Source of the DNA: a virus
DNA length: 64,000 nt
Reading direction: 5' to 3' (one strand)
IMG/VR virus record: IMGVR_UViG_3300010885_025649
Coordinates: 1-64,000 of that record
In this document: one piece after another, positions 3,084-50,104 of the stretch
Numbering within the stretch: the stretch's first letter is position 1
Layout: each line of letters opens with the position of its first letter
Notes under the pieces: model-generated
Seen by the model: only the letters and a program-made list of their open reading frames with translations
What the model was told of the DNA's origin: nothing
Databases searched by the model: none
Translations under genes and position numbers: made by a program

Positions 3084-4367
3084 ATGGCAAGTAATCAAGC
3101 GTTATCATTATCTGCAGGAGTATCTAGCAATACATCTAAGAATGCTCCATTCACTTCATCAGACCCCACCTTTAGAATATATAGAGGTGATCCTGATAGT
3201 GCTAATTGTGCAGATACTTATTTCTGGGAGATGGATGTATTACCTGCCATTACTCCAGCTAATACATTTTCAGGTGAAGGTACTAGAGTTCCTAATACAG
3301 AGGTTGGAATCTCTAGTAAAGTGCGCATGAGAGTGGCCACACAACCAATCATTGGTGGTACACCTATCAAGCAATCATTAGGCATTGAGGGCCAAATGAT
3401 GACCTTTGTAGGAGCCTTTTTAGGTAGAGGCCGGGATAGCAATAACTTTGTAGATCATGAGAATGCAGACGCTAATAGTTATACAGGAACAGGACCTAAT
3501 AAAGTTGCCTCTGATAGTTATACAAGTATGCAACTACAAAAGGTAACTGCAACTGCTGTTTATAATAAAATATCTACAAGTGCAGAAGCTTATTATACCG
3601 CAGAGCAGTTTAATAGTGAGATTGTTCTTCCCGGTAGAGAAGTAACGGTTATAATCACATATCCTATGTTAAAAGACATGGATTTAAATATAGCTTCATC
3701 TCCCGGGCGTGGAATTAGAATTAAAGCCACAGGTTATATAACCTCTATAGATTACATGCATGTAAGAGCCACAAGAACTTATTACAGATTTGTATTAGAT
3801 GTAACTAAATTCTATCCATCTAAGCGGCCATTAAGTTCTGGTACCCCTGAGCTTATACTCAGCCCGGAGAATAAACAGCAATCTTGTACATCTTTAATTA
3901 ATGCTCAGATAGCTTTAGTACAAGCACAAAGTAAATTATATAGTTTACAGACACAGTTAACGACAGCACAATCATCACTAGCAAATCTACAAACTGCTTT
4001 AAATAACTTCCCAACATCAGGGCAAGGATTACCCACTGAGAATTTAATAACCGATCCTAACTCAACTGTAGAATTATTACCAAATGCCCCTAACTTTACA
4101 GCCTCAACATTTACAGATACAACTCCTACAGATTCTATTAATCTACAAACAGCTAAGATAACTACAGCTTCGGCAAGTGTAGATAGTATTAATAAACAAA
4201 TAACAACTACACAAACATCAATAACAACTCTTATAAAAACTATCATACAAGAGAGTAAATCTTGTAGTATTTATGCAAGACCGATAACAAGTCCTGGAGA
4301 ACTACAAAAGCCGGCAAGATACACACCAGCTTCTAATGCTAGTCTCGTCCCAGATATTATAAGATAA
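3084..4367 (+). CDS. Putative baseplate/tail protein with C-terminal coiled coil
   Basis: 427 residues preceded by an AAAGGAG ribosome binding site. The N-terminal 260 residues are beta-rich with a Gly/Pro-containing core (LGIEGQMMTFVGAFLGRG) and a repeated RATRTYYRF-like strand, resembling a phage tail-hub or baseplate fold in general character. Roughly residues 270-390 form a Gln/Ser/Thr-rich heptad region (SLINAQIALVQAQSKLYSLQ, later SVDSINKQI) interrupted by a low-complexity linker, which looks like a coiled-coil trimerisation segment. The family is not recognised. Virion role is inferred from composition and its place among tail genes upstream of terminase. Confidence 0.5.
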   Translation: MASNQALSLSAGVSSNTSKNAPFTSSDPTFRIYRGDPDSANCADTYFWEMDVLPAITPANTFSGEGTRVPNTEVGISSKVRMRVATQPIIGGTPIKQSLGIEGQMMTFVGAFLGRGRDSNNFVDHENADANSYTGTGPNKVASDSYTSMQLQKVTATAVYNKISTSAEAYYTAEQFNSEIVLPGREVTVIITYPMLKDMDLNIASSPGRGIRIKATGYITSIDYMHVRATRTYYRFVLDVTKFYPSKRPLSSGTPELILSPENKQQSCTSLINAQIALVQAQSKLYSLQTQLTTAQSSLANLQTALNNFPTSGQGLPTENLITDPNSTVELLPNAPNFTASTFTDTTPTDSINLQTAKITTASASVDSINKQITTTQTSITTLIKTIIQESKSCSIYARPITSPGELQKPARYTPASNASLVPDIIR

Positions 4368-5015: not shown

Positions 5016-6818
5016 ATGGATAAAACAACCAGTAAATTAGTTGATATGCAAAATAGTTTAATCTCTGCCTTAGAGAAGAAAGTTAATAAGGGGCAGAATT
5101 ATAACATATTAGAATTTATTGAGAATGTTTTAGAAACCCCAATAAGTAAACTTTATTTAGCTCAACGAGTAATCTTCAAAGCAGTATACAAATTACCATT
5201 TGATTCTGAAGAAGCCGCTTTAATGCAGCTTTGGGTAAGTAATAATAAAACTAACTGGAAAGAAATATCAGAAGAGCAGAATTGGAAAGTTATAAATATC
5301 CAAGCAGGGATGAGAAGTTCTAAAAGCTGGATGGCTGCGGCCATAGCTTTATATGAGTTCTATAAATGGCATAACATGGATAATCCCAGAGAATTTTATG
5401 GATTACTCCAAGGAGCTATTGTAATAACTTGTTTAGCTACCACAGAAACCCAAGTAAAAGATACTATTTTTGGTAAGATAGTAAGCTTTTATGAAGGGTC
5501 TAGTTATTTTACAAATAATAATGAGATTAGTAAGATTGACACTAGAGTTAGATCTAAGACTAAAGACATGGAGATTATAGCTGCCCCGGCTAACCCTTCA
5601 GCTCTTGTAGGAAAGACTTCTATAGTAGTCGTATTTGATGAAGCTTGTCGTATGCATGAACCTAATGCTTTAGGATCTGTAGAAGCTGTAAGAGCTTTAT
5701 ATACAAGTGTGCAGAAGTCTATTACCAACATATCCCACTTCTCTAAAGTAATCACTGTATCCAGTGCTTGGGAAAAGGGAGACTTTATGGAGTATTTAAT
5801 AGAGAGAGATTGGGAGTATGCCGAGAGAGGATATTTATGCTTCAACTTATCTACATTAGATATAGCTAGTAGTAATGCTAATGTAGCCGCTGAAGTAGCC
5901 ACTCAATTAGAAGTAGAACCTATTGCGGCACTTAGAGATTTCTATAATGTAAGGCCTGAATCTCAATCAGCATTCTTAGATCCTAATGAAGTAAACAAAG
6001 CTTTAATAAGCACACCAATGATATATACAACCCCTAAAGATATTACAGTTAATGAGCATACTTGGGTAGGTGTAGACTATGCTAATATACCTAAATTACA
6101 TTTTAGTGAGATGTCATATATACATGGAGATCCTGGAGTAAGTGGAGATAGTTATGCAATAACTGTAGCTCGACCGGTATATATGGATGGCGTCTATAAA
6201 TGCTTAATAGATTGTGTAATTACTTGGGTACCTACTAAAACTAAAACAGGTGTTAAGAAAGTTAGCTTTGATTCTGTAGAGCAAACTGTTATTGAGTTAT
6301 GTAAGAAACGAAATGTAGGCGCAGTAACTCTTGACCACTTCCAAGGAGAAGGCTTGATACAGAAGCTACAACTCTTAGGTATTAATGCTAGCGAAATGCA
6401 CTTTAATAGAACTCAGCAGACTAATTTATATATGACTTTTAGACAATGGCTAAATGCCGGCCGCATTATATTACCAAAGGATATAGATGTTCCTCCTTAT
6501 AATATCATGGTACAAGAGTTAAAAAGCCTGATGTTAATCGGGGGAACTAAAGTAGATCACCCTAAGACGGGTTCAAAGGATATTGCAGATACTATTGTAG
6601 GGGCATTATCGCACGTAGTAACTCATGAAGCTAATTATCCTAGCGGTGGTACTACTAACAATGGTGCAGTTACTCTTGATAGAAGTATATTTTATACCGG
6701 GGGAATAATCTTAGCTAGAGAAGCGGCTATTCCCGCTAGACAAAACCCATTATTTAATAACAGACGGAGTGCATATGAGTCAGCAAATCTTACCAACTTT
6801 ATGTCCCCTAATAGGTAA
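5016..6818 (+). CDS. terL: Terminase large subunit
   Basis: 600 residues, the usual terminase size. The N-terminal ATPase has a Walker A-like loop GMRSSKS (residues 98-104) and Walker B VVVFDEA with D208/E209, followed by a coupling-type VSSAWEKG segment. The C-terminal RNase H-fold nuclease shows HGDPGVSGDSYAI with the first catalytic aspartate, VTLDHFQGEG with the second, and a late DIADTIVGA segment carrying the third acidic position. The enzyme powers DNA translocation into the prohead and cuts the concatemer. It starts four bases after the upstream gene, and its last 44 bases overlap the next gene. No intein or intron is seen here, although terL is a common intein site. Confidence 0.95.
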   Translation: MDKTTSKLVDMQNSLISALEKKVNKGQNYNILEFIENVLETPISKLYLAQRVIFKAVYKLPFDSEEAALMQLWVSNNKTNWKEISEEQNWKVINIQAGMRSSKSWMAAAIALYEFYKWHNMDNPREFYGLLQGAIVITCLATTETQVKDTIFGKIVSFYEGSSYFTNNNEISKIDTRVRSKTKDMEIIAAPANPSALVGKTSIVVVFDEACRMHEPNALGSVEAVRALYTSVQKSITNISHFSKVITVSSAWEKGDFMEYLIERDWEYAERGYLCFNLSTLDIASSNANVAAEVATQLEVEPIAALRDFYNVRPESQSAFLDPNEVNKALISTPMIYTTPKDITVNEHTWVGVDYANIPKLHFSEMSYIHGDPGVSGDSYAITVARPVYMDGVYKCLIDCVITWVPTKTKTGVKKVSFDSVEQTVIELCKKRNVGAVTLDHFQGEGLIQKLQLLGINASEMHFNRTQQTNLYMTFRQWLNAGRIILPKDIDVPPYNIMVQELKSLMLIGGTKVDHPKTGSKDIADTIVGALSHVVTHEANYPSGGTTNNGAVTLDRSIFYTGGIILAREAAIPARQNPLFNNRRSAYESANLTNFMSPNR

Positions 6819-9474: not shown

Positions 9475-12400
9475 GGCTAGTACAAATGAACAATTAAGAG
9501 CACTAGGAATAACAGGGGAGGTATATAACACCTCCTCTCGTTCTAGTGTTCTTTTTACATCAAGAGGAACTAGCACAAAAGCATTTGATAGGTTACTAAC
9601 TAACGGCAATAAAATAACTAATGTATTACAATACCACATAAATCCTACAGGAGCATTAGGTGGAAAGCTAGTTAATAATGCTACTAATATTTATAGAGCA
9701 AATGATTATAATTCTAGACGCCACCCAGACAGTAGAATTAAACAAGTCCCTAATTATATAGAAGGACCAACTAGAGATAGTTATACTCACATTAAGTTGT
9801 ATGGGGGCACCAAGACTTCCATGTTCAGTACTTCAGGTGCTGGAGGTGGAAATACTCAAGACTTTGGAGAAGAGAGTGAGATAAACCTAAACTATATTTC
9901 TCCTAAGCTAAATAATCTAGAACGGACATTTGTTAAAGATTATTTAAGTGGCAATGCTAAAGATCAGTATCATGATAAAGATATAGCTTTATACTATCAA
10001 GATTATAAAACCCCTGGCATTAGTACAGAAGAAGCTAAGTTAATTAACGCTGCCCAAAAGGGTGACACTATTAATATAGGTAGTGCCACTTTAAGTAGTA
10101 ATAGTATTGTGGGTGCTGCACTAGAAGCTGCTTTAGCTAGGGGTGCACAAGTTAATATTGCTACTACCGTTGATGGAAGTAATACAACAACTACAGCAAG
10201 AACACTAAGTCACTATTCAAACTTAGGTGCAACAGTATTCCCTACTAATGTAGATGGAGTTATACTCCATGCTAACTTCTTAGGAATTAAATATAAGAAT
10301 AAACCTGAAGTAAGTTTAATAACTTCTTTTAGAGCAAGTGCTAAGGCTCAAAGTACTTATGGAGAAACTCAAACTAACCTAGCCATAGAACTCCATGGAG
10401 CAGAAGCTTCCAGTATTAATAAATATATAAATTCTGTATTATTCAAACCAGGAAATGGCCAAGCACCCAGTGCTGTAGGAATTGGTAATAGATTAGCTGA
10501 ACTGGGTAATTCAAATTATCTAAGCGCATTAGTTAATATGAGTGATGCAGTTAATGTTCTTTATACTATCCAAGCAGATATTAGTGGAGATTTATTAACC
10601 AGATATTACAGTGCTAATCAACAAGGATTAACTGGTAGAGCCAGACAGATATATTTAACTCAACCCATCTTTACTGGAGAGCCTGTAGCAGAACAGTTAT
10701 ATTATGTAACTAGAGGAAGTGCTGCTCCTAGTTACGTTAAGGTATTAGATACTATTAGAAGTAGTCCAACTATTTATAATGCTATTAATGGATTTGTGAA
10801 TCAAGCTGTAAGACCTAAAGATGAAACAGCTTTTGGGGCATTTGCTTTTGGCTTCTTAGGGGGACAAGGAGGATTCTTTAAAGGAAATGAGAATCCTATT
10901 CTATCTATATTAGCGGCACCAGCAAGAGGAATAGATAATCTATTCCGGACTCAACGAGCGCCTTTTAATAATGGTGTTTATGGAGCATTAATAGCAGGTA
11001 GCATTGGTTCTATTACTGCAGGAGTTATAGTAAGACAACGCTTTAATAATAATCTAGGATTTATAGCAGGAGCATTAATAGGGGGAAGTATTGGAGCAGC
11101 AATGAACCAAACTCCATCTAATATGTTTAGTACTCCTGGAGTTAAACTAATGGCATTAAACAAAGCTAATAAAGGAGATTTGCAAGATACTAATGCTCCC
11201 GGCCCAGCAGAAAGTCTTATTGGAAATCTATTTAATTCTGTACAATCTGTAGGATTATCCGCATTAATGTATGGAATACAATCTAGAATTGCACCTTTAG
11301 TAATGGATTATATATTCCAAAGCAGTGCTACTACTGCAGCTTTGATGAATAATATTAGTGAAGATCTAAGTAAAATGCCTCCGGGTACTTCTAATGTATC
11401 TAAATTCTTTAGAAGTATTGGAGTCTTTGGTGCTAAAAGTGTTGGACTTGTTAATACTATTGGTAACTTAAATAGTATTCGTAGAGGAATTGCTATTGGT
11501 AACTTAGGATTATATGGATCCTTTGCTAGAGATCTCTTTGGATTAGATATGTTAGTCCAATTAAATAGACCTATAGGTAATGCTACAGGAAATTATACTC
11601 ATGGAGTTGAAGTCTATCATAAAATAGGAGCTGAAAATCCTGGTGTTCTTATTAGACCAGGAGATGATTTTAGAGGTAAGTTAGATCCTATTTTAGATAA
11701 AGGTTATAATATCCAACTAAGTACAGTTTCAAGAGATCCTGAAATCTTACGTCAATATGGTAGAGGAATATTCCGGGAATCCAGTTCATCGGGGTTATTG
11801 GGAAGAGTTAATAAGAAAGTTATAGCAGAGGCGTTAAATACTATTCTAGACTTAAACTCCAGAATACATTTAAAAGATGGAACCTTTGGATTAGCACATA
11901 CTACTTATGGTAGAGCATTTGGTACAGTAGACCAAGAGTTAACCGGAGACTTAAATACACGATTAAATACTGATATTGAAAGCTTTATTAAAACACATCA
12001 TCCAACTGCTACCGTATTAGAAATAGCGGAAATAAAACGCAGGATAATATTTGGTAACGAAGTAGAGATAAATGGAAATAAAGTACGAGCACCAACTTAT
12101 CAATACCTTACTGAGGCTGGTATAGATAATATAGATAGATTGTTTGGATATTACAGACAAGGAATGAATATCTTAGGAGCTATTTATGTTAACCCCATGA
12201 TATTTGCTCTCGGGAACAAACCAAAAGATACTTCATTAACCATTAAGGATTTACTAGCTGCTATTCAAGAAGGAACCTCTAATGTATTTGGATTACCTTT
12301 AAACTTATTTGATAATGATGATAAGTTAAAAGCACTATTTAAAAGTAATAATGATGAGGGGCCTCTTAAATACTTTAGTAGTAAAGGCAAAGCCATTACT

Positions 12401-18400: not shown

Positions 18401-21400
18401 GTTCAAGGTCCTGCAAAGAATCCTACAACTAGTCCATTAAGCACTCCTACTGCTCCATTAGCAGCGCCTATTAGTACTCCTGTAGCACCAGTAGTTAATC
18501 AATTACAGCCGCCAAGTGATGTCACAACAACTCCTTTAACACTAGAAACAACTCCACATACACCAATCACTAATAGAAGATCATACACTTTGGGAGAGCA
18601 TACACAAGGATTAGGAGGTTTAGTACTCGGGGTAGGTTTAGTTGCTACTGCTTGGTCTTTTAGAGAAGCTCAAATGACTAACTTTAAAGACACAGATGCT
18701 GATACAAATCTCTTTATTAGTTCAGCAGGAGTAGCAACACAACTTCTGGGAGGTAAAGCAGGAGTAATTGGTAATACCATTTTAGGTATAGGTATGATTG
18801 GACTACAAGCTAAAGTTGCTGCAGAGAACCAATGGAAGAATCAAGAAGCTAATGCAAATGTAGTAGGAATTGGAAGTAATATATTAGGTAACTTAGCTGG
18901 ATTTACTGCTTTAAGTGCAGTGGCAGAAGGTTTAGGAGGAGTAGCTGGTATAGCTGCAGGAGTGGGAGCAACAACAGGATTAGCAGCAGCAGCCGTCCCA
19001 ATAGCAATTGGTGCAGCAATATTAGGCGGCGCCGCACTTATAGGGGCAACAGCAGAGTGGATTGGAAAAGGAATATATAATAATGTAACCAAACCACAGC
19101 CCGTATCACAGGTCTCAAAACCAGTTACAGTTAGTAATAAATATGTTAATGTGGCCCCTGTATATAAAAATCCAGTTAGTAATAATATACAAGTAGATAA
19201 AACCAATACTGATTATATTAGTGTATATCATTCTAATAGAAGCCCAGTAAGTACAAGAGTGCATTTAGCTAATACTGGTAGTCCACCTATTAGTGATTAT
19301 GTTGGTATGTATCATTCTAATAGAAGTCCTATAAGTAGTAAATTAAGTCTACCTAAACCTGTTCCACATATAGCAGAGTATGTAAGTAAGTACTCGTCTA
19401 GTAGAAGTCCTATTAGTAGTAAACTGCCTTTAACTAAAGTTACTAGTTCACCAATTATCAAATATCAATCTACTAGAAACCCAACCAGTACTAGAATAAA
19501 TCTATCAAATCCTATTAGCAGTTTTATTGATAGACCAGCTCACTTTAATAATCTTAATCCCGCTGAATATGTAAGTAAATATGTATCAAATAGAAGTCCT
19601 ATTAGTACTAAAATTAATCAACACAAAACTAATACTTTAGGTTCAGTTAGTAATACAAAACATATTAATACCAATCCATATTATGCAGTGATTGCTCATG
19701 TAGATGATGATAGAATAAATAGTAATCTTATAGATACAAGACAACTAACATCTTTAAACCAACTTAAGGAAACTTTAGTTAGTATCAAACATAAAGCTAA
19801 TGGACAACATGTAATATTAGATTTAGATACTCATGGTATAGAAGGAAGAGGCTTCGCATTTACAAAAACTGCGCATGGTAAGACTACAGTTAGCGCAATG
19901 TCTGCTAAATATCTTAATAGACAATTGTATGAAGCTGGGTTTAAGAAAGATGACATCACAGTTATTTTAGAAACTTGTAATGCTTATTTCTCTTATAATA
20001 GTTCAAAGAGTGGATTCAAAGCTACTTCAAAAAGTGATATTGAAAAAGCAGAATCTAGAATAAATTCTAGTAAAGCTACAGCTACCTTATTAGACACTAA
20101 TAAAGAAACACCCATAGAGTATAAAATGTATGGGCGCCGGTCAGGTAATTACGAATACTTAGCATTAGCACAATATGTAGGAAATGTAGAATTACAGGGT
20201 CCAGCTAATAGAACAGAGATTGTTGAAGTGCATGGAAATTATAAAGGCTCTGTAGATACCAACTATCCACTGACGTTCCTAAATATACACGATCAAATAA
20301 TCGCAAGTATAAATTCAAACTATATTGAACAATATCCTTCTGGCAGAAGCCCTGTAAGCACAAAGCACAGTAAAAATATATTCCAAAATATCTTTGAGTT
20401 CTTCTTCGGTAAGCCTGTTGCAGCAGATACTTTAAAGGATCCAAGTAATTGGTTAACTAATAGTCAATACACAGCATTAACCAAAACTGCAGGCGCTAGT
20501 AAATTAGAGCAGAGAGTTAATAAGAGTCTACCTGCATTAAATACTAAAGGAACGCCTCTACAAAGTATTCAGAAGAAACCTAATACATTAGACTATATAC
20601 AATCCGCTACTATGAACTTCTTTGATCAGATAAAAGAAGACTTTAATTATATTCTAAATAGAGTTGGTAGTGGTTTAAATAAAATAGGTAATGGAATTGG
20701 CCATGCTATTTCTAATTCAGTAGATGGTATTGGAAAACTATTCGGCAAAAGCTCACAAACCTTTGACCAACAATCCCCAACGTTAATGGCAAATCTTATG
20801 AGAGATTTCAGTCTCACAAAGGAACAAGCCGCGGGAATAGTAGGTAACTTAGGTCATGAGTCTGCGGGGTTACAAGCAGGTATACATCACATTGGATCTA
20901 CAAGCAGTAATGCGGGTATAGGTTGGGCACAATGGGTTGGACCCAGACGTAAAGCCTTTGAGCAATACTTAACTATGACCAATCAAAAGGCTACTGATGC
21001 AAATGCCAATTACGGCTTCTTAAAGCAGGAATTAATGGGGCAATACAGAAGTGCCATTAAAGAAGTCAGAAAGCAATCTACCGTACACAACTCCATGGTT
21101 GTATTCGAGAAGATTTACGAAGGGGCTGGTATAAAGAATTATGCTAGCAGAGAAAGATATGCTAACCGCGCTTTAGCTACATTGGGTAGTATATCTACCA
21201 CAGCAACAGTTAGTAATAATTCAGAAGCACTATTCCCTATAGTTGGGTACAGCTCTTTAACAGCTCCTGTAAGAGGTCAATTTGGTACCCAGAGGCCCGG
21301 GCATGTACACCAAGGTACTGATTATGGTATCCCAGTAGGAACAGGCCTTGTAGCCCCATTAAACGCCACTGTAAGTGAAGCCGGAAGTAATTCCAGTATG

Positions 21401-22201
21401 GGTACTTACATTAGATTAAAAGCATTAGATAATTCCGGTAGAGCTATTAAATATACCTTTATGCACTTATCTCAACTAGATGTACATAAGGGTGAACAAG
21501 TAGTAGCAGGACAGGAAATAGGTAAAAGTGGTAACTCCGGACATAGTACAGGAGCACACGTCCATATAGAAGTACAGCAAGGTAACTTGAATATAGATCC
21601 GGCAGCATATTTTGGTAAGCGCGCTGGAGTAAGTAAAGTAGCACAAGTTGTGCCTAAAGGGGAAACAAAGACTAGTAATAGTAACCAAACCCAAAGTGCT
21701 ATTGATCCTTATACCGGACAGTATAGAGGAGAAGTATATGATGGAAATACTTTAAACAGTATTAAAAGATATGTACCAACCGGTAGAGGCTATAAGTTAG
21801 ATATCCTTAATGGTTCTGAAGTAGTAGTTATAACAGATGCTAATAATAATACACAGCATCAGCATATTAATTTAGATATGAAACCTAAAGTTAATATGAG
21901 TGTAATGTCACCCACTATAGTAAGTCCAGTTAAAGCTACTCCTATAACCCCTACTAAGAAGAATAAAGTAAAGACTACTATTAAAGTAGTAGTTACACCA
22001 ACTTGTTATAAGGAGGAGATGATTAGTAGAGGGCAGATACAATTAGATACAGCTAAATCTCCTACTCCAATAAGTCATAGTGCTAAGGCTGTCATAGTAG
22101 TAAATAAAGATGGAAAGGCCAATCAAGTTATGCATGAAGAAAGAGCCACTGAATTAACAATGGCTCAATGCGGGATCCCCAATTTTCAATACAGAGCTTA
22201 A
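9473..22201 (+). CDS. Giant multidomain virion protein (tape-measure/internal type) with protease-like, lysozyme and M23 domains
   Basis: 4242 residues, by far the largest gene here. Residues about 185-300 resemble a PLD-like fold but keep only the histidine (H266) of the HxK motif. From about 500 to 3200 there are many Gly/Ala-rich hydrophobic segments with glycine-zipper spacing (about 501-543, 1238-1291, 1447-1488, 2527-2560, 2782-2812, 3139-3199), as in tape-measure or injected proteins. Pro-rich linkers flank a duplicated 40-residue unit (2855-2946). Y.S.RSPIS repeats (3248-3630) surround a caspase-like domain (H3454, C3502). C-terminal are a tail lysozyme (about 3768-3905, E3796) and an M23 peptidase (about 3930-4050; H3946, D3950, H4029/H4031). 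Likely role: DNA entry through the cell wall. No Shine-Dalgarno is visible. Its stop overlaps the convergent gene by 4 bases. Confidence 0.85.
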   Translation: MASTNEQLRALGITGEVYNTSSRSSVLFTSRGTSTKAFDRLLTNGNKITNVLQYHINPTGALGGKLVNNATNIYRANDYNSRRHPDSRIKQVPNYIEGPTRDSYTHIKLYGGTKTSMFSTSGAGGGNTQDFGEESEINLNYISPKLNNLERTFVKDYLSGNAKDQYHDKDIALYYQDYKTPGISTEEAKLINAAQKGDTINIGSATLSSNSIVGAALEAALARGAQVNIATTVDGSNTTTTARTLSHYSNLGATVFPTNVDGVILHANFLGIKYKNKPEVSLITSFRASAKAQSTYGETQTNLAIELHGAEASSINKYINSVLFKPGNGQAPSAVGIGNRLAELGNSNYLSALVNMSDAVNVLYTIQADISGDLLTRYYSANQQGLTGRARQIYLTQPIFTGEPVAEQLYYVTRGSAAPSYVKVLDTIRSSPTIYNAINGFVNQAVRPKDETAFGAFAFGFLGGQGGFFKGNENPILSILAAPARGIDNLFRTQRAPFNNGVYGALIAGSIGSITAGVIVRQRFNNNLGFIAGALIGGSIGAAMNQTPSNMFSTPGVKLMALNKANKGDLQDTNAPGPAESLIGNLFNSVQSVGLSALMYGIQSRIAPLVMDYIFQSSATTAALMNNISEDLSKMPPGTSNVSKFFRSIGVFGAKSVGLVNTIGNLNSIRRGIAIGNLGLYGSFARDLFGLDMLVQLNRPIGNATGNYTHGVEVYHKIGAENPGVLIRPGDDFRGKLDPILDKGYNIQLSTVSRDPEILRQYGRGIFRESSSSGLLGRVNKKVIAEALNTILDLNSRIHLKDGTFGLAHTTYGRAFGTVDQELTGDLNTRLNTDIESFIKTHHPTATVLEIAEIKRRIIFGNEVEINGNKVRAPTYQYLTEAGIDNIDRLFGYYRQGMNILGAIYVNPMIFALGNKPKDTSLTIKDLLAAIQEGTSNVFGLPLNLFDNDDKLKALFKSNNDEGPLKYFSSKGKAITQLFLQDASNKSISADLSTNLNTNDREVRSLRGFFGKESSALGEKIALLGAENKLALRGLAGLKLLGMTLPLTLVGLALGDQPGNSLTTATTMLFDQLQNGPSLYGSKLLGGLAKVGGINQDYFTGGVKPALGFSLNPFYLKRAGIATNPNGTPLMYSDGTYQYVDKGRDWKEDLQLTGQLSLEIGGGLLAYNAIKHGVGLATDLADLKAGGTRSLERIIGSRLNRLAGETVLPALALLTFGAVDTAVDSLVQKVSPYGVNYGMSFMLLSGVAGAGIGAVFNKDSGRIKAGAKGAVGGLLLGAVATMIAEFATTLGVDAIRGAAGLISGRPIDDAVMNNTVEGSLRNTYRYALSIGDMAGAIRARAEMQSMGFYIDNSNSRLSHSIATQLGTTPVAQNAISLNIDNSGAVIPTLSFQLPLLGFGVNLESPVKFAFRSNQQLLLARDPDQNYSKVYEGGLVLPQQLGMPNMLGMGLGAIAGIAAKGAFTRFGLPAIVPMALGGLIGGFGFNAYNSLTNKDKPKQGSLSIEYNSGNDLEKLMLGYTAIAPILVSSQLISGAFINTGIGLANSSTNELVQKAGGTLIGLGYKISTNPIVSAARMMGGHANNLVGGQWGLFNNTYGLINRDRGIPVIPLNDKLPGGKIPERSVTHLPAFLVKGIGKTVKYAAAYMLLSNMFDLNKTIPLGNGNTIPTLFSPTAALITGTYASLKYGPRLLPEGSIKEFANIIGGSRSRALTSMFAVIGATALYTLSAQTTNGIPTPRKSVAALNNIASIPFIGNPLAKITDFFYGVSRNASIQDRYTVIPTVFGGIRTGTNTNSLLTGDFGSPIVRKRGGAGLITSDITTALSSGSFSGLLYLGAAQNTTLTITGNQGSSFTKMGNYTLPRNSYVQMIFQGADLSYAYNLLPSGDKAQKQRALARFNVIKNAGPNPKNILKALNTQRPGFSQQDYRTSSPLFSSATLKAVHSELILAALKQRQFVTEYILKNPSEDITSYLDSLGVDKMLNGIGALSKQVILPVRGNFYWNRTAVGGPVGAGPTGHPYFIGGGEVDTSAQLTLQNFNYNSLQTVQNAAANDKALTIFNLGLISLSGLILAGPLLGNLFTNASRRTNIDRYVAEGGGQRSMINIGAYNTERGGNQLLAKVALSGAGDSNLGTLAYLGGLPIYHTDVIPGSYKTAYDNVSKNISELYVGDAQRKLNTIDRNNIASVKEFAELIHGKLTDLRNSMFTGSENITNELNARPDIVAKFDPHRDRNRLAKISELDKVLAGLRADIDSAVDPHRLLEKTLSRREPFRDVSAAGVFKLMGFEVDPGGNTLARMATWFGERIPGAKSIYDFIRPNKLTKAARAEDPLRLHTMSSAESDRILNGLGVKESERIKASIFTDVENQVAGKTALRIMGSTGAGVIGTLQNLAITSMFLDVGDSRRSMVYRENQATTALETTSLFLGTHMATQVLTTGGKAAYELATTGTMNRVGLVAMFANPEVSWLPGLFIAGATMFGPTVLDWMDHMGVPGIKGFKQGVGSNLERAANWADKGLNTNQSVGSTSLGFAALTALTIFTAGGGFIAAGVAGGVVAAANSLANKGTKATPAQQLANTLQAIQNIPGIGPNVIRPIWEKANDLFESTYQTLANQIRGGLQADPKSFWWGVAEGIVEGSSGRNLFEDRTKINSAQSMFLSGYYRGSPLFSVNNRDYKALGYDANYQKFLADTHEQEQSRLNTDTLISTRILHKTVLNGIAYSGDYQDEVFANRLMGGSQGRIFTKGSRAIDNLLMLSITSRAEDTQWVFGSVYNRAVERETIKNSGVAIGAMLLPTLGAMATLGGAGYIASRAAKRGRPPSSGGLTEPEAPKPNLPDPPNQGVLLEERPASQRRVLTQAEQTHDFLIWRNETAEGKIAYKNHGVHARGIYNKLYGVTGHQSSEAYVKPLMGNEAQHDYRLWLQTAEGKAATIEGKGSFDDYFDLFGFKGHQPKPSPQPVIQNKLNPEQYLESAKLAATRPSVQGPAKNPTTSPLSTPTAPLAAPISTPVAPVVNQLQPPSDVTTTPLTLETTPHTPITNRRSYTLGEHTQGLGGLVLGVGLVATAWSFREAQMTNFKDTDADTNLFISSAGVATQLLGGKAGVIGNTILGIGMIGLQAKVAAENQWKNQEANANVVGIGSNILGNLAGFTALSAVAEGLGGVAGIAAGVGATTGLAAAAVPIAIGAAILGGAALIGATAEWIGKGIYNNVTKPQPVSQVSKPVTVSNKYVNVAPVYKNPVSNNIQVDKTNTDYISVYHSNRSPVSTRVHLANTGSPPISDYVGMYHSNRSPISSKLSLPKPVPHIAEYVSKYSSSRSPISSKLPLTKVTSSPIIKYQSTRNPTSTRINLSNPISSFIDRPAHFNNLNPAEYVSKYVSNRSPISTKINQHKTNTLGSVSNTKHINTNPYYAVIAHVDDDRINSNLIDTRQLTSLNQLKETLVSIKHKANGQHVILDLDTHGIEGRGFAFTKTAHGKTTVSAMSAKYLNRQLYEAGFKKDDITVILETCNAYFSYNSSKSGFKATSKSDIEKAESRINSSKATATLLDTNKETPIEYKMYGRRSGNYEYLALAQYVGNVELQGPANRTEIVEVHGNYKGSVDTNYPLTFLNIHDQIIASINSNYIEQYPSGRSPVSTKHSKNIFQNIFEFFFGKPVAADTLKDPSNWLTNSQYTALTKTAGASKLEQRVNKSLPALNTKGTPLQSIQKKPNTLDYIQSATMNFFDQIKEDFNYILNRVGSGLNKIGNGIGHAISNSVDGIGKLFGKSSQTFDQQSPTLMANLMRDFSLTKEQAAGIVGNLGHESAGLQAGIHHIGSTSSNAGIGWAQWVGPRRKAFEQYLTMTNQKATDANANYGFLKQELMGQYRSAIKEVRKQSTVHNSMVVFEKIYEGAGIKNYASRERYANRALATLGSISTTATVSNNSEALFPIVGYSSLTAPVRGQFGTQRPGHVHQGTDYGIPVGTGLVAPLNATVSEAGSNSSMGTYIRLKALDNSGRAIKYTFMHLSQLDVHKGEQVVAGQEIGKSGNSGHSTGAHVHIEVQQGNLNIDPAAYFGKRAGVSKVAQVVPKGETKTSNSNQTQSAIDPYTGQYRGEVYDGNTLNSIKRYVPTGRGYKLDILNGSEVVVITDANNNTQHQHINLDMKPKVNMSVMSPTIVSPVKATPITPTKKNKVKTTIKVVVTPTCYKEEMISRGQIQLDTAKSPTPISHSAKAVIVVNKDGKANQVMHEERATELTMAQCGIPNFQYRA
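18035..18310 (+). repeat. Duplicated 40-residue unit in the giant protein
   Basis: Two imperfect copies, residues 2855-2895 and 2907-2946. Both follow the plan [EA]Q.HD[FY].[LI]W..[ET]AEGK.A...G and end in G[VF].GHQ. They lie between two proline-rich linkers. They may form a small helical binding module; function unknown. Confidence 0.7.
19214..20364 (+). repeat. Six Y..Y.SNRSPISTK peptide repeats around the protease-like domain
   Basis: Consensus Y[IV]..Y.S.RSP[IV]S[TS][KR]. Five copies fall within residues 3248-3385, and the sixth, YIEQYPSGRSPVSTK, starts at residue 3617 on the far side of the caspase-like domain. Copy four is degenerate (KYQSTRNPTSTR). Spacing is irregular, so these look like short linear motifs in a flexible linker and not a folded tandem repeat. 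Confidence 0.75.
19673..20193 (+). other. Caspase-fold (clan CD) cysteine protease-like domain inside the giant protein
   Basis: Residues about 3401-3573. A hydrophobic strand VILDLDTHG ends in the His-Gly dyad (H3454-G3455). A second strand ITVILETCNAYFS ends in a cysteine (C3502) 48 residues later, the spacing and strand context of clan CD peptidases (caspase, gingipain, CHAT). The N-terminal strand YYAVIAHVDDD and the intervening helix LNRQLYEAGF also fit. Catalytic activity and homology are inferred from motif order only. Confidence 0.55.
20774..21622 (+). other. Tail lysozyme plus M23 endopeptidase module of the giant protein
   Basis: Residues about 3768-3905 match the phage tail lysozyme type: MRDFSLTKEQAAGIVGNLGHESAG with a probable catalytic E3796, then GIGWAQWVGPRR. 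Residues about 3930-4050 are LytM/M23: APVRGQFG, then HQGTDYG (H3946, D3950), GKSGNSGHSTGAHVHIE (H4029, H4031). The glycosidase-plus-peptidase pairing resembles phi29 gp13 in concept and would open a local hole in peptidoglycan during entry. Confidence 0.85.
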
Positions 22202-28570: not shown

Positions 28571-31372
28571 TTACCCCTCACATCCACAACTATCCACGGG
28601 TAGCGATGTATCCACAGTTAAAACCGGAGCTGAGTCACCCACATCAATCATTTGTCTTGCTGCCACTCTAGTAGCACTATCAGCATCTGCTGCAGATTCT
28701 CCATAAGTATAATAGATGGTAGCTAAGCCTCTATCATATGCAGCCATGTGAGTATTATGAATTTGCTGACCAGAATAAGCTCCGGTATTCTTATCTTTAC
28801 TAAAGAATAGATCTACTGATTGCCCTTGATCTAACCATTCTTGTCTCTTTGCAGCTTGATTAATAATAGCAATAGGATTAATTTCCCAAGGAGTCTTAAA
28901 GACTTCTTTCTCTAAATCACTTAATTGATGGATATGTTGGATACTTCCACCACCACCATTATCTAATAGACTATTAAGTAATGATTGTGAGTAAATTCCT
29001 TTAGCTTTTAGTAATTGTATTAATACAGGGTTCTTAACTATAAACGCGCCTTTAGCACTAAAGTCAGCATAGTAATTACCTATTGGTTGAATACCATAAC
29101 TAACTTGTCCACTAATAATTGCATTAGTTCTTGTAGGAGCAATAGCTAATAAACTACCATTACGTCTACCAGTACCTTTAAGCCATTCAGGTTCCCCATA
29201 CTCTTTAGCTAAATCCTTAGTAGCTATATCAGCATTCTGTCTAATAAACTTCATGATGTTATTAGTATAGCCAACTGCAGCAGGGGATTCAAAGGGGACT
29301 AACTTCTGTTGTAAGAATGTATGCCAGCCTAGAATTCCTAATCCTAGTGCTCTTGATTTAACCGCGCCAAGATAAACTCTTTCAAATCCGGGTAGATCTT
29401 TAGCAAGTTCCAGCCATTCTTCCATAACGGCATCCAGGAACCAAATTGCTAATTGAACTACAGTGGGATCATCTTTCCATTCATCATACTTAGCTACATT
29501 TAGAGAACTTAATACACATACGTAAGAGTGTTTATCATCATTAGGCAGGATTATTTCCGTACAGTTAGAACTAAGTAATCCAATAGATAAAGCAAACATG
29601 TGTGTTGTATTTACAGTAGTACAATACACATCTTGTTTATCTTCTAGTAATTCTACAGCTTTAACTTTATTAAATTTGCACTTAGCATTATATCCTGTAA
29701 GATCTCTAAAAGAAACTAATCTAGTAAAGGTTACAAGCTTCGCTAATTTTCTAGCTGCAACAGATGAAATAGTTAATCTCCAAGAGTCTTTACATAAATA
29801 CTCACCATACCCATCATTAAAATCTTTAAGGCCCTCTTTATTAGCAACACTAATAGTAGAATTAACTCCTAAAGTTTTAAGAAGAGTTTGTAAATCATAT
29901 AGAAAACTCTTATGAATTGAACCAAGTTGATAACCATAACTTCCTGAGGATTGCATTGCACAACCATCAGCATCAAATAAGCCAGCAATAAACTCACATT
30001 TACTTACCAGATCCCACTCAAAGACTTCTTGCGGCAACTTAACTTTGTTAGTAGTAGTCCAAGGATATAACTCATCTTTCCTAGCAGAAAGCCCTTGCAT
30101 ATTCTTTCTATTATCAGTAGAGGTTTTAAACCCTAATTCATCTATTTGATTAGTGACAGATTGTTTAGGTTTTATTTCTTCTGCAGAATCAATAAGTCTT
30201 TGCATGCAACTATATTTAGTATCATATAACCATAGCAAAGGTCTATCATCAATATGAGTCCCATCCCCACACAAGAAGCCTTTTATATAAGCTCCTTCTG
30301 TAGTTTTATTGCCATGACTTTCTTGAGTATGGCTTAGTAATTTAGTTCCAACTTTAATATCTTTAGCTAGTATCTTAGTACCATCTTCCAAAAAGAACCC
30401 ATGATCTAAAGTACAATCAACATATGAATTATCAGCTAAAGTAATTCGCATTACTTCTACATTCTGTTCAATAAGTTTAAATTGATCATTAGTTACCCAA
30501 CTATTACCATCAAAGATTGTCACAGTTTTATTAACTAAATCCTTAATAGGAAAACTACCTAAAGAGGTTGTAACTTTAGTATCTCCTGTCAAACACAGGT
30601 TAGTATTATTAAACCTTAATCCTGCATCTTTATACCATTGAGGTAGAATCCTATTAGCATTACCACTAAAAGTCTTATAAGGTTGAGAGAATTGTACACT
30701 AGTAGTTAAAGTCTTAAGCCATAAACTAACTGCTTCAGAATCACTATTCTTAACTCTCTGCATAAATTCATCAGTGAATAATGCAGAGTGATTTAGATTA
30801 CCACAGAAGGTACTAATATCCCCTTTAGGCTGTCTAATATTAAGGAACTGTAAGTAATCACCATGTTCAACATTTAAGGTAGCCTGATAAGCGCCACGTC
30901 TAACAGATCCTTGAGAGCAAGCATAAGTAGTACTATCAGCAATCTTTAACCAAGGAATAACTCCACCAGAGGTACCATTAATACCACCTCTAATAGGAGT
31001 ACCTGCAGGTCTAACTCCAGACCAATCATACCCAACAGCACCGCCGCCTTTAGTTAAAGCCGCGAATTCATTAAAGCTATCAAAGATACTACCCGGACCA
31101 TTAAGGGTATCACCTACAACAGAACCGTAGCATGACGCTGGCAAGCCTCTATTAGTACCAAAGTTAGTTAATACTGGAGTAGCAGGACAGAGCCAACCCA
31201 TCCACAGTATATGAAATATCTTCTCTTCTAATTCTGGCTTCTTTAATCTTTTAGCGGCGGTAGCGGCTAGTCTTCTATACATATCACGGGGAGTTTCCCC
31301 CTTCATTAAATAACCATTATTTAATACTTGAGAGCCATCCCGGGTTAACCACACGGGTGAAGTTTGAATCAT
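28571..31372 (-). CDS. nrdA: Class I ribonucleotide reductase alpha subunit (NrdA) with intein
   Basis: 933-residue precursor; removal of the 344-residue intein (260-603) gives 589 residues, short for NrdA and lacking an N-terminal ATP cone. Visible family motifs: PATPVLTNFGT with SCYGS (first redox Cys), the loop PIRGGINGTSGGV, NL|CTEI carrying the active-site N, thiyl Cys and Glu, GLGILGWHTFLQ, LLAIAPTRTNA, and IYYTY, the tyrosine pair of radical transfer. The C-terminus CGCEG supplies a cysteine pair for re-reduction. It makes dNDPs from NDPs with NrdB, whose gene is 14 bases upstream. No thioredoxin or glutaredoxin gene is seen nearby. Confidence 0.95.
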   Translation of the reverse strand: MIQTSPVWLTRDGSQVLNNGYLMKGETPRDMYRRLAATAAKRLKKPELEEKIFHILWMGWLCPATPVLTNFGTNRGLPASCYGSVVGDTLNGPGSIFDSFNEFAALTKGGGAVGYDWSGVRPAGTPIRGGINGTSGGVIPWLKIADSTTYACSQGSVRRGAYQATLNVEHGDYLQFLNIRQPKGDISTFCGNLNHSALFTDEFMQRVKNSDSEAVSLWLKTLTTSVQFSQPYKTFSGNANRILPQWYKDAGLRFNNTNLCLTGDTKVTTSLGSFPIKDLVNKTVTIFDGNSWVTNDQFKLIEQNVEVMRITLADNSYVDCTLDHGFFLEDGTKILAKDIKVGTKLLSHTQESHGNKTTEGAYIKGFLCGDGTHIDDRPLLWLYDTKYSCMQRLIDSAEEIKPKQSVTNQIDELGFKTSTDNRKNMQGLSARKDELYPWTTTNKVKLPQEVFEWDLVSKCEFIAGLFDADGCAMQSSGSYGYQLGSIHKSFLYDLQTLLKTLGVNSTISVANKEGLKDFNDGYGEYLCKDSWRLTISSVAARKLAKLVTFTRLVSFRDLTGYNAKCKFNKVKAVELLEDKQDVYCTTVNTTHMFALSIGLLSSNCTEIILPNDDKHSYVCVLSSLNVAKYDEWKDDPTVVQLAIWFLDAVMEEWLELAKDLPGFERVYLGAVKSRALGLGILGWHTFLQQKLVPFESPAAVGYTNNIMKFIRQNADIATKDLAKEYGEPEWLKGTGRRNGSLLAIAPTRTNAIISGQVSYGIQPIGNYYADFSAKGAFIVKNPVLIQLLKAKGIYSQSLLNSLLDNGGGGSIQHIHQLSDLEKEVFKTPWEINPIAIINQAAKRQEWLDQGQSVDLFFSKDKNTGAYSGQQIHNTHMAAYDRGLATIYYTYGESAADADSATRVAARQMIDVGDSAPVLTVDTSLPVDSCGCEG
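29564..30595 (-). mobile_element. Intein in NrdA with LAGLIDADG homing endonuclease
   Basis: Residues 260-603. It starts C260-LTGDTKV (block A), has TLDH (block B) and ends GLLSSN603 before C604 of the extein. C604 is the catalytic thiyl cysteine in NLCTEI, so the enzyme is inactive until splicing. The penultimate residue is Ser, not the usual His. Two LAGLIDADG helices are intact: YIKGFLCGDG (D370) and FIAGLFDADG (D469), so homing activity is plausible. Confidence 0.92.
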
Positions 31373-31386
31373 ATCTTATTCTATCC

Positions 31387-34215
31387 TTATATAATAATAT
31401 CTGAGAAATCAATAGTACTTTTATTATAAACAGTATTTCTATTAGCAAAAGAATCTTGCATTTGATTACTGGCTGTAAGAACACTAAACCAATCTAAAGT
31501 ATGGGGTTTAAGATTTCTCCAATTAGTTTTGAGGCCAAGATCTCCCAATTTAGTATTAGCTCTATGTCTAATATATAATTTAATATCTTCTGCAGTAATA
31601 CCTCTAGCATTTCCTAATTTAAATGCTTCATCAATAAAAGCATCTTCATAAGTAACAATATCTCTAGCAGCTTGATAAATAGTAGCTTTTAATTCATCTG
31701 TCCATAAATGAGGATTCTCTTGAATATACTGTCTAAATAACCAACAGCCAGCTTCTGAGTGTAAAGAGTTACCAGAAATACAAACATTATTATTTCTTCT
31801 GACTACTAAAGCGCCTGTAGGTACTGCTACACAATAGACCATACCCTTATATTCTTCCAATGATTTAGTAATAGAAGAGCCAGGAATAGAAGTACCTCTA
31901 TTAATATAGATGTAATAGTCATCAACTTTAGTACGAGAAACATTAGTATAATAACCACCCAAAACAGCTATAGCTTGTAGAGTATTTATATTAATAGGAC
32001 ATGATGTTGTATAAATAACAGAATTATCTGTAGCTAAGCAAGCTGTCCATTGTGCGACATGATAAATAAAATCCACACACCATTCAGAAGTTACTGTAGA
32101 ATAATCAATCCAATTATACCGGTTAGAGAAATCATGTCCTTGGGGAACAGTAATAACAAAGGTTGTAAATAAAGATAGATCAGACTTATTAGTTTTAGAA
32201 TATTTATAAGGAAAAGAATCTAAGAATTCAGTAAGCTTAGCTTTACGTTGAGGATTATCTATACTAATAGTAATAGTAGTTTCATCAATAGTAGTTCTAA
32301 AACACCCAAGTAATACTCTAAGTTGTTCTATTAAAGTTAATTTACTTTTAGTTTTATCCTTAGCATTAGCATATCCAGCCGTAGGTAATGCATTATCTTT
32401 AGAATAATTAGCGCTACTAGCATATTCAAACTTATAACCATTACCACCTTTACCATTAATTAACATTCTATGATTTGGGGTAACAGATAAATTCATAGCA
32501 CCTCTAGTAGACTTGAAGTTATACAACTCTCCATCTACTTCATAACTCATTAATTTAGTAGGCTTAACAAAACTAATCAGTTTACTGCTGGGATTATATT
32601 GTGCAATATTTGTGGTTAAATCAACATCTTTAAGTAATTGCCACCCCGCAGGAGTAAGAACTTCTGTATCATCAGAATAGCATTCATCTTTAATAGAAGC
32701 TGTAATAATTTTACCAACACTTTTCAGCAAATTAAATCTACTAAAGTTTAACAAGATCGCAAATGAGCTAAACAAGCTAACCCCTTCAGTAAAAGCACTA
32801 AAGACTGCCAAAGATGTAGCAACATCTCTTTCATGTAGTAAGTTATTTATCTTAGCACTTAAGACTTTATTAGACAAGAATTCTGTATAAATACTATCTG
32901 GTAAGTTCAAAGAATCATTTAAGTATGAATAGCTCTTTACATGGATAGAATTACCTGTAATAGCAACTCTACCTTCTCTCCTAGAAACTATATTCTCTGT
33001 TGGAACAGAAACACAATACACTTTGCCATTATAATTAACTAATTCTCTATGAGGATATGTTCTAGTTGAGCGGTCAGATATACTTAACACATAACAAACC
33101 TTTGCAGTCTTAGGATGTCCACCTTGCGGTAAATTAACACTTAAAGCAGCTTCTTCATCTCTATTTACACCAATACAGGTTGTTTTACCAGCTAATACTC
33201 CAACTGCTTGTAGTTTATTTACCGCTTCAAAGTTAGTCGAGTAATAATAATGTCCTACTGATCCATCCCATAAAAGAGCTTCTTCTAAGACTTCACAGGC
33301 TTTTTGTTGGCTCATAGATTCTAAATCTAAGAACCCTAAGTTTTTGATATTCTTAATATCGATATCATCAGGAATAGAAAAGCTGATTGTTTGGCGATTA
33401 GCTCCACAACGTTCTTTATCATGTACATAATAAGCTATACCAGCTTCGTCAAGTAAAGATTTAATTCTAGTAATCTTTCGATCTTTAGTAAGATCGAGAT
33501 CACATCTTCTCCAATCTCTACCTTCAGCACTAGGACAATTACCTCTTAAGCAGCCATCAGCTTGAGCAGCTATTAAAATTCTTTCTAAGACAGATAAAGA
33601 ACCAGAAGCACCAACACCCTTACCAGAAGTTGGATAGCTATAATTATTTCCCAAAGTAGATTTATCCGACTTCCTCTTAGTAACCTTTTTACTAGCGGGG
33701 TGAATTGTAATTAAATCATGATTAGGAGTCACACATATATTAGTAGAATTTGTTTTATATAAGTGCATTACACCTTCATAATCATATGACATTATTTGTG
33801 TAGGCAGCACAAAAGTAATATGCTGACTTAATAAATCATACTGAGCAACCTTATCATATTCAGTTAAGTCTTTACAAAACTTCCAACCATTACTAGTTAA
33901 CAATTCTGTTTGATTATCAAAGCATTCAAAATCAGCAAATGCATTTGCCATCATAGCAATTTCAGGGTGAGGAAACCACAAAGGTACTTTAGACCAGTAT
34001 TCTTTCTGAACTTCTATTTCAGTTTGTGTAAAAAGCTTTAATATAACTGTAACAATATTTCGTTCGGCGGGGGTTAAGTTAGTATTAAAATCCTGCAAAT
34101 CCCCTTGCATACCAAACTCTGTCCATAACCAATGAGACAAATGCTGAGTAAGAAAATACTCCTCAGCTTTAGGATATAAAATTGGACGATAGTTAGTTCT
34201 ACCTTCTATTAACAT
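31387..34215 (-). CDS. nrdB: Class I ribonucleotide reductase beta subunit (NrdB) with two inteins
   Basis: 942-residue precursor; removing inteins of 325 and 305 residues leaves 312 residues, near the usual NrdB size. The R2 ferritin-like metal ligands are seen across the splice joints: FADFE|SIHVKSYSY gives the first ExxH and, three residues after the ExxH motif, the radical-tyrosine position. FTEGVSLFSSF gives the helix with the third Glu. KDE|SLHSEAGCWLF gives the second ExxH. The protein assembles the radical cofactor for NrdA. Its leader holds three direct repeats. The C-terminus (DFSDIII) is the short hydrophobic tail that docks NrdA in this family. Confidence 0.95.
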   Translation of the reverse strand: MLIEGRTNYRPILYPKAEEYFLTQHLSHWLWTEFGMQGDLQDFNTNLTPAERNIVTVILKLFTQTEIEVQKEYWSKVPLWFPHPEIAMMANAFADFECFDNQTELLTSNGWKFCKDLTEYDKVAQYDLLSQHITFVLPTQIMSYDYEGVMHLYKTNSTNICVTPNHDLITIHPASKKVTKRKSDKSTLGNNYSYPTSGKGVGASGSLSVLERILIAAQADGCLRGNCPSAEGRDWRRCDLDLTKDRKITRIKSLLDEAGIAYYVHDKERCGANRQTISFSIPDDIDIKNIKNLGFLDLESMSQQKACEVLEEALLWDGSVGHYYYSTNFEAVNKLQAVGVLAGKTTCIGVNRDEEAALSVNLPQGGHPKTAKVCYVLSISDRSTRTYPHRELVNYNGKVYCVSVPTENIVSRREGRVAITGNSIHVKSYSYLNDSLNLPDSIYTEFLSNKVLSAKINNLLHERDVATSLAVFSAFTEGVSLFSSFAILLNFSRFNLLKSVGKIITASIKDECYSDDTEVLTPAGWQLLKDVDLTTNIAQYNPSSKLISFVKPTKLMSYEVDGELYNFKSTRGAMNLSVTPNHRMLINGKGGNGYKFEYASSANYSKDNALPTAGYANAKDKTKSKLTLIEQLRVLLGCFRTTIDETTITISIDNPQRKAKLTEFLDSFPYKYSKTNKSDLSLFTTFVITVPQGHDFSNRYNWIDYSTVTSEWCVDFIYHVAQWTACLATDNSVIYTTSCPININTLQAIAVLGGYYTNVSRTKVDDYYIYINRGTSIPGSSITKSLEEYKGMVYCVAVPTGALVVRRNNNVCISGNSLHSEAGCWLFRQYIQENPHLWTDELKATIYQAARDIVTYEDAFIDEAFKLGNARGITAEDIKLYIRHRANTKLGDLGLKTNWRNLKPHTLDWFSVLTASNQMQDSFANRNTVYNKSTIDFSDIII
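31768..32682 (-). mobile_element. Intein 2 in NrdB (second ExxH motif), decayed endonuclease
   Basis: Residues 512-816, starting C512-YSDDTEVLT and ending CISGN816 before S817. It lies directly after the metal-binding Glu of E|SLH. Splicing blocks resemble intein 1 (VTPNH block B; GMVYCVAVPTG near the end versus GKVYCVSVPTE), so the two are paralogues. The first LAGLIDADG helix reads LLGCFRTTID and the second lacks its acid (HVAQWTA), suggesting a dead endonuclease. Confidence 0.92.
32950..33924 (-). mobile_element. Intein 1 in NrdB (first ExxH motif)
   Basis: Residues 98-422, starting C98-FDNQTELLT and ending AITGN422 before S423. It lies directly after the metal-binding Glu of E|SIH. Block B is VTPNH. 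The LAGLIDADG helices are moderately conserved, ILIAAQADG (D220) and EEALLWDGS (D317), so the endonuclease may work. The penultimate residue is Gly instead of His, and the +1 residue is Ser. Confidence 0.92.
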
Positions 34216-49093: not shown

Positions 49094-50101
49094 TTAGTGT
49101 TCCCAATAAGTATTACAGCCAAATTCCGACGCGCCTTTAACAACATTATTCATTAGTGCCGTCGCAACTATTTCCATCATATTCTTTATTCTATAAATAT
49201 GTTTACTAGCTTCTGTATCATAGACAAAGCTTTTATAAGTATTAGATTTCTTATTATAGCTACAATTGATTATGGATTCCGGACTATAAACACTTTCATA
49301 TTTGTTAGTATCAATAGTTAAATTCCCAGGGATCTCGAATATTAATTCATCATGAACTTGCAGGATTAATGAATTAGGAAACTCTTTAGATATTTCTATC
49401 ATAGCTTCCTTAATTTGTTCTGCAGCAAAGGATTGAATAGGTGCATTTACTCCTTGTCGTCTACAAGCATTAGCATCAGATTTACCAACACTAGCATCAT
49501 TAACAAATCTGATTCTACCCTCTGCATTAACCGCATAATAGGTTAAGCCAGCAAACTCCATCTTATCAGCAATCCAAGATTTAAGTACCGGGAATGGATC
49601 AAAGTAATTATTAATAATTATTTCAGCATCTCTAACAGCTTTACGTTGTGCTAACTTTTCTCCAAAGCCTTTATCTACATATGTTTTAGCCAAGTTAAAA
49701 TCTTTAGCTAAACCATCTGCTCCTTTAGCATAGATTTGCCCTAAGCCAATAATTTTAGCTAGATCTCGCAAAGACTTATTATAAATAGGATGAATATGCG
49801 CCGCGGCTATAGGTTTTAATTCATTAAAGGTCCAGTTAGGATTATTAAAGAACTCAGGATAGTTATGATGGAAGACATCTTTAAACATTAAATATGCAGT
49901 CATAGTATGTGCATCCTGCCCTGAGTTCTGAATACGAATCATCTCAGGATCATTAGACATAAATGCCGCGATTCTAATTTCTTGACTAGATAAATCGACA
50001 CTCAGTAATAATTTGTTAGGCGGCGAGACAAATATGTGTCTATAGTTCTTCTCTTTACCATCTAAAGGATCTATCAGTTTTACTTTACTTATTTGTTGCA
50101 T
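49094..50101 (-). CDS. polA: DNA polymerase I (family A), 3' exon: palm and fingers
   Basis: C-terminal half of a split polymerase. The first residues (N)MQQISKVK continue the NLQQIP motif interrupted by the intron. Motif A is VDLSSQEIRIAAFMS (catalytic Asp), motif B RDLAKIIGLGQIYAKG (Arg, Lys, Tyr), then NAPIQSFAAEQIKEAM, and motif C QVHDELIFEIP. An insertion of about 50 residues follows motif C (NKYESVYSPESI to SKHIYR) before the last helix. The true exon begins upstream of the ATG at 50101; the AAC before it belongs to the coding sequence. It needs splicing to the 51434-52693 part. Confidence 0.93.
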   Translation of the reverse strand: MQQISKVKLIDPLDGKEKNYRHIFVSPPNKLLLSVDLSSQEIRIAAFMSNDPEMIRIQNSGQDAHTMTAYLMFKDVFHHNYPEFFNNPNWTFNELKPIAAAHIHPIYNKSLRDLAKIIGLGQIYAKGADGLAKDFNLAKTYVDKGFGEKLAQRKAVRDAEIIINNYFDPFPVLKSWIADKMEFAGLTYYAVNAEGRIRFVNDASVGKSDANACRRQGVNAPIQSFAAEQIKEAMIEISKEFPNSLILQVHDELIFEIPGNLTIDTNKYESVYSPESIINCSYNKKSNTYKSFVYDTEASKHIYRIKNMMEIVATALMNNVVKGASEFGCNTYWEH

Positions 50102-50104
50102 GTT

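Follow-up and report, generated by a model that had tools for sequence, protein, structure and literature searches.

A predicted caspase-like peptidase domain in a giant, likely virion protein of a jumbo phage

Introduction

Peptidase C80 of large secreted toxins is a clan CD domain in a giant multidomain protein and is thought to self-cleave, releasing domains. Family C14 (PF00656) comprises caspases, metacaspases and the prokaryotic orthocaspases; metacaspases have an acidic S1 pocket that gives specificity for Arg/Lys (PMC6657590), and orthocaspases cleave after basic residues (PMC6426788). Caspase-like domains also occur just upstream of C-terminal toxin domains in polymorphic toxins, in which they have been proposed to be releasing peptidases, and the same 2012 survey lists Tox-Caspase in Caudovirales (PMC3482391). 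Tape measure proteins of phages commonly undergo proteolytic processing, and processing of at least some tail and tape-measure proteins has been suggested without detailed description (PMC1796659).

Here we analysed the window, the whole 64-kb stretch of DNA that forms the first part of a 212,497-base virus record, in which the giant open reading frame (ORF) P0001 carries a predicted caspase-like domain (Table 1). The domain resembles C14, its best profile match, in the order strand-HG, helix, strand-acid-x-Cys and in the acidic residue at Cys-2, and differs in having Glu rather than Asp at that position and Asn after the Cys, and in being embedded in a giant phage protein. P0001 is comparable to C80 by description, as a giant multidomain protein with a predicted internal clan CD domain, although the phage domain has no Pfam match. 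The releasing peptidases of polymorphic toxins (PMC3482391) are likened to it by architecture only: in both, a caspase-like domain lies inside the chain immediately ahead of a C-terminal effector domain. In P0001, which is probably a virion protein, the C-terminal domains are instead peptidoglycan hydrolases. Among tail proteins that carry wall-hydrolase motifs or are proteolytically matured, lambda gpH, T4 gp5 and the TM4 tape measure protein are the nearest parallels (PMC1796659). To our knowledge, the protease that processes the lambda, T4 and TM4 proteins is not a caspase-like domain in the same chain.

Table 1. Positions in the window of the giant ORF, its predicted domains and residues, the flanking repeats and the terminase gene
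Feature	Residues of P0001	Position	Strand	Remarks
Terminase large subunit		5016..6818	+	reference gene for finding relatives; 29% identity with Microcystis phages
Giant ORF P0001	4242 aa	9473..22201	+	one intact frame; after terminase
Weak PLD-like domain	189-293	10037..10351	+	PF13091 at E 0.001 in a scan of residues 1-500; short of the Pfam cut-off
Repeat 1, YISVYHSNRSPVS	3248-3260	19214..19252	+
Repeat 2, YVGMYHSNRSPIS	3276-3288	19298..19336	+
Repeat 3, YVSKYSSSRSPIS	3303-3315	19379..19417	+
Repeat 4, PIIKYQSTRNPTS	3327-3339	19451..19489	+	degenerate (IKYQSTRNPTS)
Repeat 5, YVSKYVSNRSPIS	3366-3378	19568..19606	+
Predicted caspase-like domain	about 3400-3577	19670..20203	+	relatives L132, L141; C14 profile match
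Predicted catalytic His (H-G)	3454	19832..19834	+	invariant in A2; aligns with H-G of C14
Glu at Cys-2 position	3500	19970..19972	+	acidic in 3/3 relatives; Asp in 28/28 C14
Predicted nucleophile Cys	3502	19976..19978	+	invariant in A2; only Cys in residues 1-4177
Repeat 6, YIEQYPSGRSPVS	3617-3629	20321..20359	+	after domain
Tail lysozyme domain PF18013	3773-3902	20789..21178	+	E 5e-22
Peptidase M23 domain PF01551	3945-4043	21305..21601	+	E 8e-19

A giant gene of a contractile-tailed jumbo phage

Genes for tail sheath, baseplate wedge subunit and capsid proteins are present in the genome of this uncultured phage, which was therefore assigned to the contractile-tailed jumbo phages; its host is probably cyanobacterial, considering its relationships to other phages. 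P0001 is likely a virion protein, given its position after baseplate-type genes and the terminase and the presence of the tail lysozyme domain. PHROGs tape-measure matches on P0001 are confined to the M23 part. A preliminary description of this DNA had placed the caspase-like domain in the 4242-residue ORF upstream of the tail lysozyme, an arrangement that the PF18013 match bears out. The only other contig found with the giant gene, IMGVR_UViG_3300009154_002711, carries a near-identical copy (99.93%; 7 differences in 10,677 bases, none of them in the caspase-like domain).

The nearest terminases detected by tblastn belong to the Microcystis phages MaMV-DC and LMM01 (29%) and to Microcoleus phage My-WqHQDG (27%). 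A giant gene also lies shortly after the terminase in MaMV-DC (2806 aa) and My-WqHQDG (4151 aa); these two giants are mutually related, and their alignment to P0001 is only marginal. A PLD-like domain is common to P0001 (weak) and the counterpart giants (E about 1e-9), and is clear in the My-WqHQDG giant and the related contig L039; the copy in P0001 seems degenerate, with the giants of related phages keeping a clear PLD domain. In the two counterpart giants scanned, only the PLD-like domain was found, with no Pfam match to lysozyme or M23, and direct searching detected the caspase-like domain in none of 26 terminase-related records. As an extended helix, the 2806-aa counterpart would measure ~420 nm, compared with a tail length of 230-260 nm in the close relative MaMV-DH01, so the counterpart giants are long for the reported tails (PMC9927357).

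Predicted catalytic dyad and relatives of the domain

The His and Cys singled out in the preliminary description are correctly placed, 48 residues apart, in VILDLDTHG (residues 3447-3455) and ITVILETCNAYFS (residues 3495-3507). A loose H-G...C motif was seen once in the ORF-like segments of the phage, compared with 0.82 expected from shuffles, and within the cysteine-poor P0001 alone it was present in 44 of 5000 shuffles. Being near chance level, the motif is weak evidence alone, and the case is carried by relatives and profiles. P0001 contains 3 cysteines compared with 35 expected from the other proteins of the phage, several structural proteins of which are almost without cysteine; the retention of Cys3502 in such a cysteine-poor protein, in common with both relatives described below, suggests a catalytic need.

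A search with the domain sequence through 386 genomes of the phylum Cyanobacteriota gave two convincing relatives, L132 (E 7e-13) and L141 (E 4e-7), both unannotated stand-alone bacterial proteins from a single genome (G086) with 26-27% identity. Weaker cyanobacterial BLAST matches (E 0.02-0.05) and a match in genome G349 (E 0.004, over 60 positions) were rejected as relatives, and PDB matches of L141 to pentatricopeptide repeats proved to be repeat artefacts (1-2 bits per repeat). A profile search of the same 386 genomes and 18 genomes of the class of G086 yielded no further convincing relative, and pattern and tblastn searches of phage records, plasmids, and IMG/VR and GTDB contigs found no close relative apart from the near-identical copy. 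The phage domain had no sequence match in Pfam, NCBIfam, PHROGs or PDB; for Pfam, this held for the domain and both relatives at E values up to 10. The domain defines a small sequence family, to date known from a single phage lineage and a single bacterial genome and missed by current domain libraries.

The alignment of the phage domain with L132 and L141 (A2) has invariant columns that include H59-G60, G63, G65 and E105-x-C107-N108; the C-terminal third holds further invariant G, R and N positions. The invariant H-G and E-x-C-N indicate that the dyad is kept across sequences that are just 26-27% identical.

Profile similarity to family C14

We compared A2 by hhalign with yardstick alignments of clan CD families built from cyanobacterial loci. 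Against C14, A2 scored 43.1 (probability 83%) with 19 sequences and 36.0 (57%) with 28 sequences and another alignment method, and the match spanned 128-209 aligned columns, the His and the Cys each falling on its C14 counterpart. Controls scored far lower: column shuffles of C14 gave at most 14.8 (n=20), the reversed C14 alignment 13.9, shuffles of A2 against C14 at most 18.4 (n=100) and a decoy alignment of alpha/beta-hydrolases 14.6. Scores against C11 (19.6) and CHAT (18.7) were at background level, and the C13 alignment (3 sequences) was unusable; as a yardstick, the accepted relatives C14 and CHAT scored 47.8 against each other. The phage domain alone scored 31.5 against C14 (maximum of 100 shuffles, 23.9), the highest value of 347 windows taken from the reading frames of the phage (mean 13.4, SD 3.1). 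L132 and L141 without the phage sequence scored 21.4, barely above the shuffle maximum of 19.5.

The spacing from His to Cys is 48 in the phage domain compared with 49-69 in cyanobacterial C14, and the Cys-2 position, which we take to be part of the acidic S1 pocket, holds Glu in the phage domain, L132 and L141 (3/3) and Asp in all 28 cyanobacterial C14 sequences; such an acidic residue may give the phage domain a preference for Arg at P1. PF00656 gave no match above cut-off for the domain, L132, L141 or the whole phage record, and we therefore do not file the domain as a C14 member. Single-sequence AlphaFold models with two domain boundaries (pLDDT 36 and 40) were too poor to trust; the order of helices and strands in the low-pLDDT model was compatible with a caspase fold but is equally untrustworthy, and the Foldseek search of the first model (no match at E <= 0.001) was discarded for the same poor quality. 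The caspase-fold protease-like domain named in the preliminary description is supported by the invariant dyad, the C14 profile similarity and the lone Cys3502. On this evidence, the region is probably a cysteine peptidase domain of the caspase fold (clan CD) that has diverged strongly, with His3454 and Cys3502 as the predicted dyad.

Possible self-processing and alternative explanations

Five repeats before the domain and a sixth after it had been proposed, and exactly six were found, of the form [YI]...Y.S.R[SN]P.S, with the fourth degenerate. The Arg is invariant across all six (S-x-R-S/N-P-x-S). Outside these six sites, the motif is absent from the stop-free frames of the phage record (115,775 residues in total), and candidate substrates in trans that bear it were accordingly not found elsewhere in the phage. 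The six repeats may be plain linkers; considering that they flank the domain on both sides and are found at no other site in the phage, the simplest reading is cleavage in cis after Arg. The predicted protease domain lies directly before two wall-cutting enzymes, and P0001 may therefore cleave itself and set these free. Maturation of the giant protein, release of the wall hydrolases and action in the host after injection, which had been listed as candidate roles, are each plausible.

We give roughly even weight to the proposal that the domain self-processes P0001 at the repeat Arg, releasing the lysozyme and M23 domains. In such a scheme, the caspase-like domain would act on its own chain—a step that we propose with some reservation—and could become active once folded or in response to a trigger in assembly or injection. 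The domain would then cut after the conserved Arg of the repeats on both of its sides, and the C-terminal lysozyme and M23 domains, split from the giant body, would presumably act on the cell wall. The complete picture, in which a phage caspase-like peptidase forms part of a giant virion protein, serves the maturation or release of that same protein by cutting six purpose-made Arg repeats and so frees the cell-wall hydrolases, is offered tentatively.

An active caspase-like peptidase could instead travel with the virion and cut host proteins in trans after injection, with the repeats as flexible linkers. The PLD-like domains of the counterpart giants, as expected of multi-domain injected proteins, are consistent with this, as are the richness of cyanobacteria in caspase homologues (C14 matches in 10 of 10 genomes tested) and the stand-alone nature of L132 and L141. 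These relatives have neither tandem repeats nor wall hydrolases, and conservation of the domain is therefore no argument for a role in release. We nevertheless consider action in trans unlikely, as the domain immediately precedes the wall hydrolases and has Arg repeats on either side, a layout that fits action in cis better, and the host assignment is itself indirect.

It is rather improbable that the region is some other alpha/beta domain with a caspase resemblance amounting to a short motif match. Such a motif is expected 0.8 times in the ORFs of the phage, and the best PDB matches of the domain in phmmer were alpha/beta-hydrolases (not significant, E 0.38); however, the match to C14 runs over 128-209 columns, places the predicted dyad on the catalytic residues of C14 and exceeds the scores of shuffles, the reversed alignment, and the alpha/beta-hydrolase and C11 alignments. 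Least probable among the alternatives is a caspase-fold domain that lacks protease activity and serves as a structural or binding module. Caspase-domain repeats without catalytic residues have been noted (PMC3482391), and pseudo-orthocaspases with Tyr-Ser replacing His-Cys exist (PMC6426788), but the phage domain and both relatives keep the dyad at 26-27% identity, and Cys3502 is retained within 4177 residues that contain no other cysteine.

If self-processing by the caspase-like domain is correct, P0001 would be, as far as we have found, the first virion protein of a phage to carry a caspase-type processing system of its own, and would extend the toxin-type layout of a caspase-like releasing peptidase to a phage cell-entry machine. 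A protease in the same chain, beside the hydrolases to be freed, would give a testable answer to the processing question for one phage lineage. The preliminary description knew of no well-described case in a tape-measure-type protein; our literature search, which covered few subscription papers, found no report of caspase-like domains in tape measure or virion proteins, whereas the listing of Tox-Caspase in Caudovirales (PMC3482391) narrows that claim. What is new is the setting of the predicted clan CD domain and the divergence of its sequence, caspase-like domains in Caudovirales having been listed already.

Additional observations

The PLD-like domain of P0001 (10037-10351) has H-x-N where the counterparts carry H-x-K. 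L132 (L132:691-2397) has a C-terminal tail with two R-S/T-x-P segments (RFVDRMSIRSTPAT and RFIDRLRRTPVATYQP) that are faintly like the phage repeats. Positions 2-1864 of the window and L049:17542-19497, which lie at opposite ends of the record, match separate parts of phrog_877; this points to a circular or circularly permuted 212-kb genome. On the minus strand of the window, a DNA polymerase is apparently split into two ORFs (49094-52693) that flank a homing-type endonuclease ORF (50143-50964), and the middle segments of ribonucleotide reductase ORFs (28571-34215) match helicase, terminase, PhoH and thymidylate synthase; these segments of unrelated families look like inteins. Another giant ORF, of 2848 aa and with zero cysteines, is located at L047:10332-18875 (minus strand), and an ORF at L044:7184-8323 (minus strand), which starts with VLSVDGNPLMPTKASRARRWLAEGKAKV, resembles IscB-type nucleases by eye.
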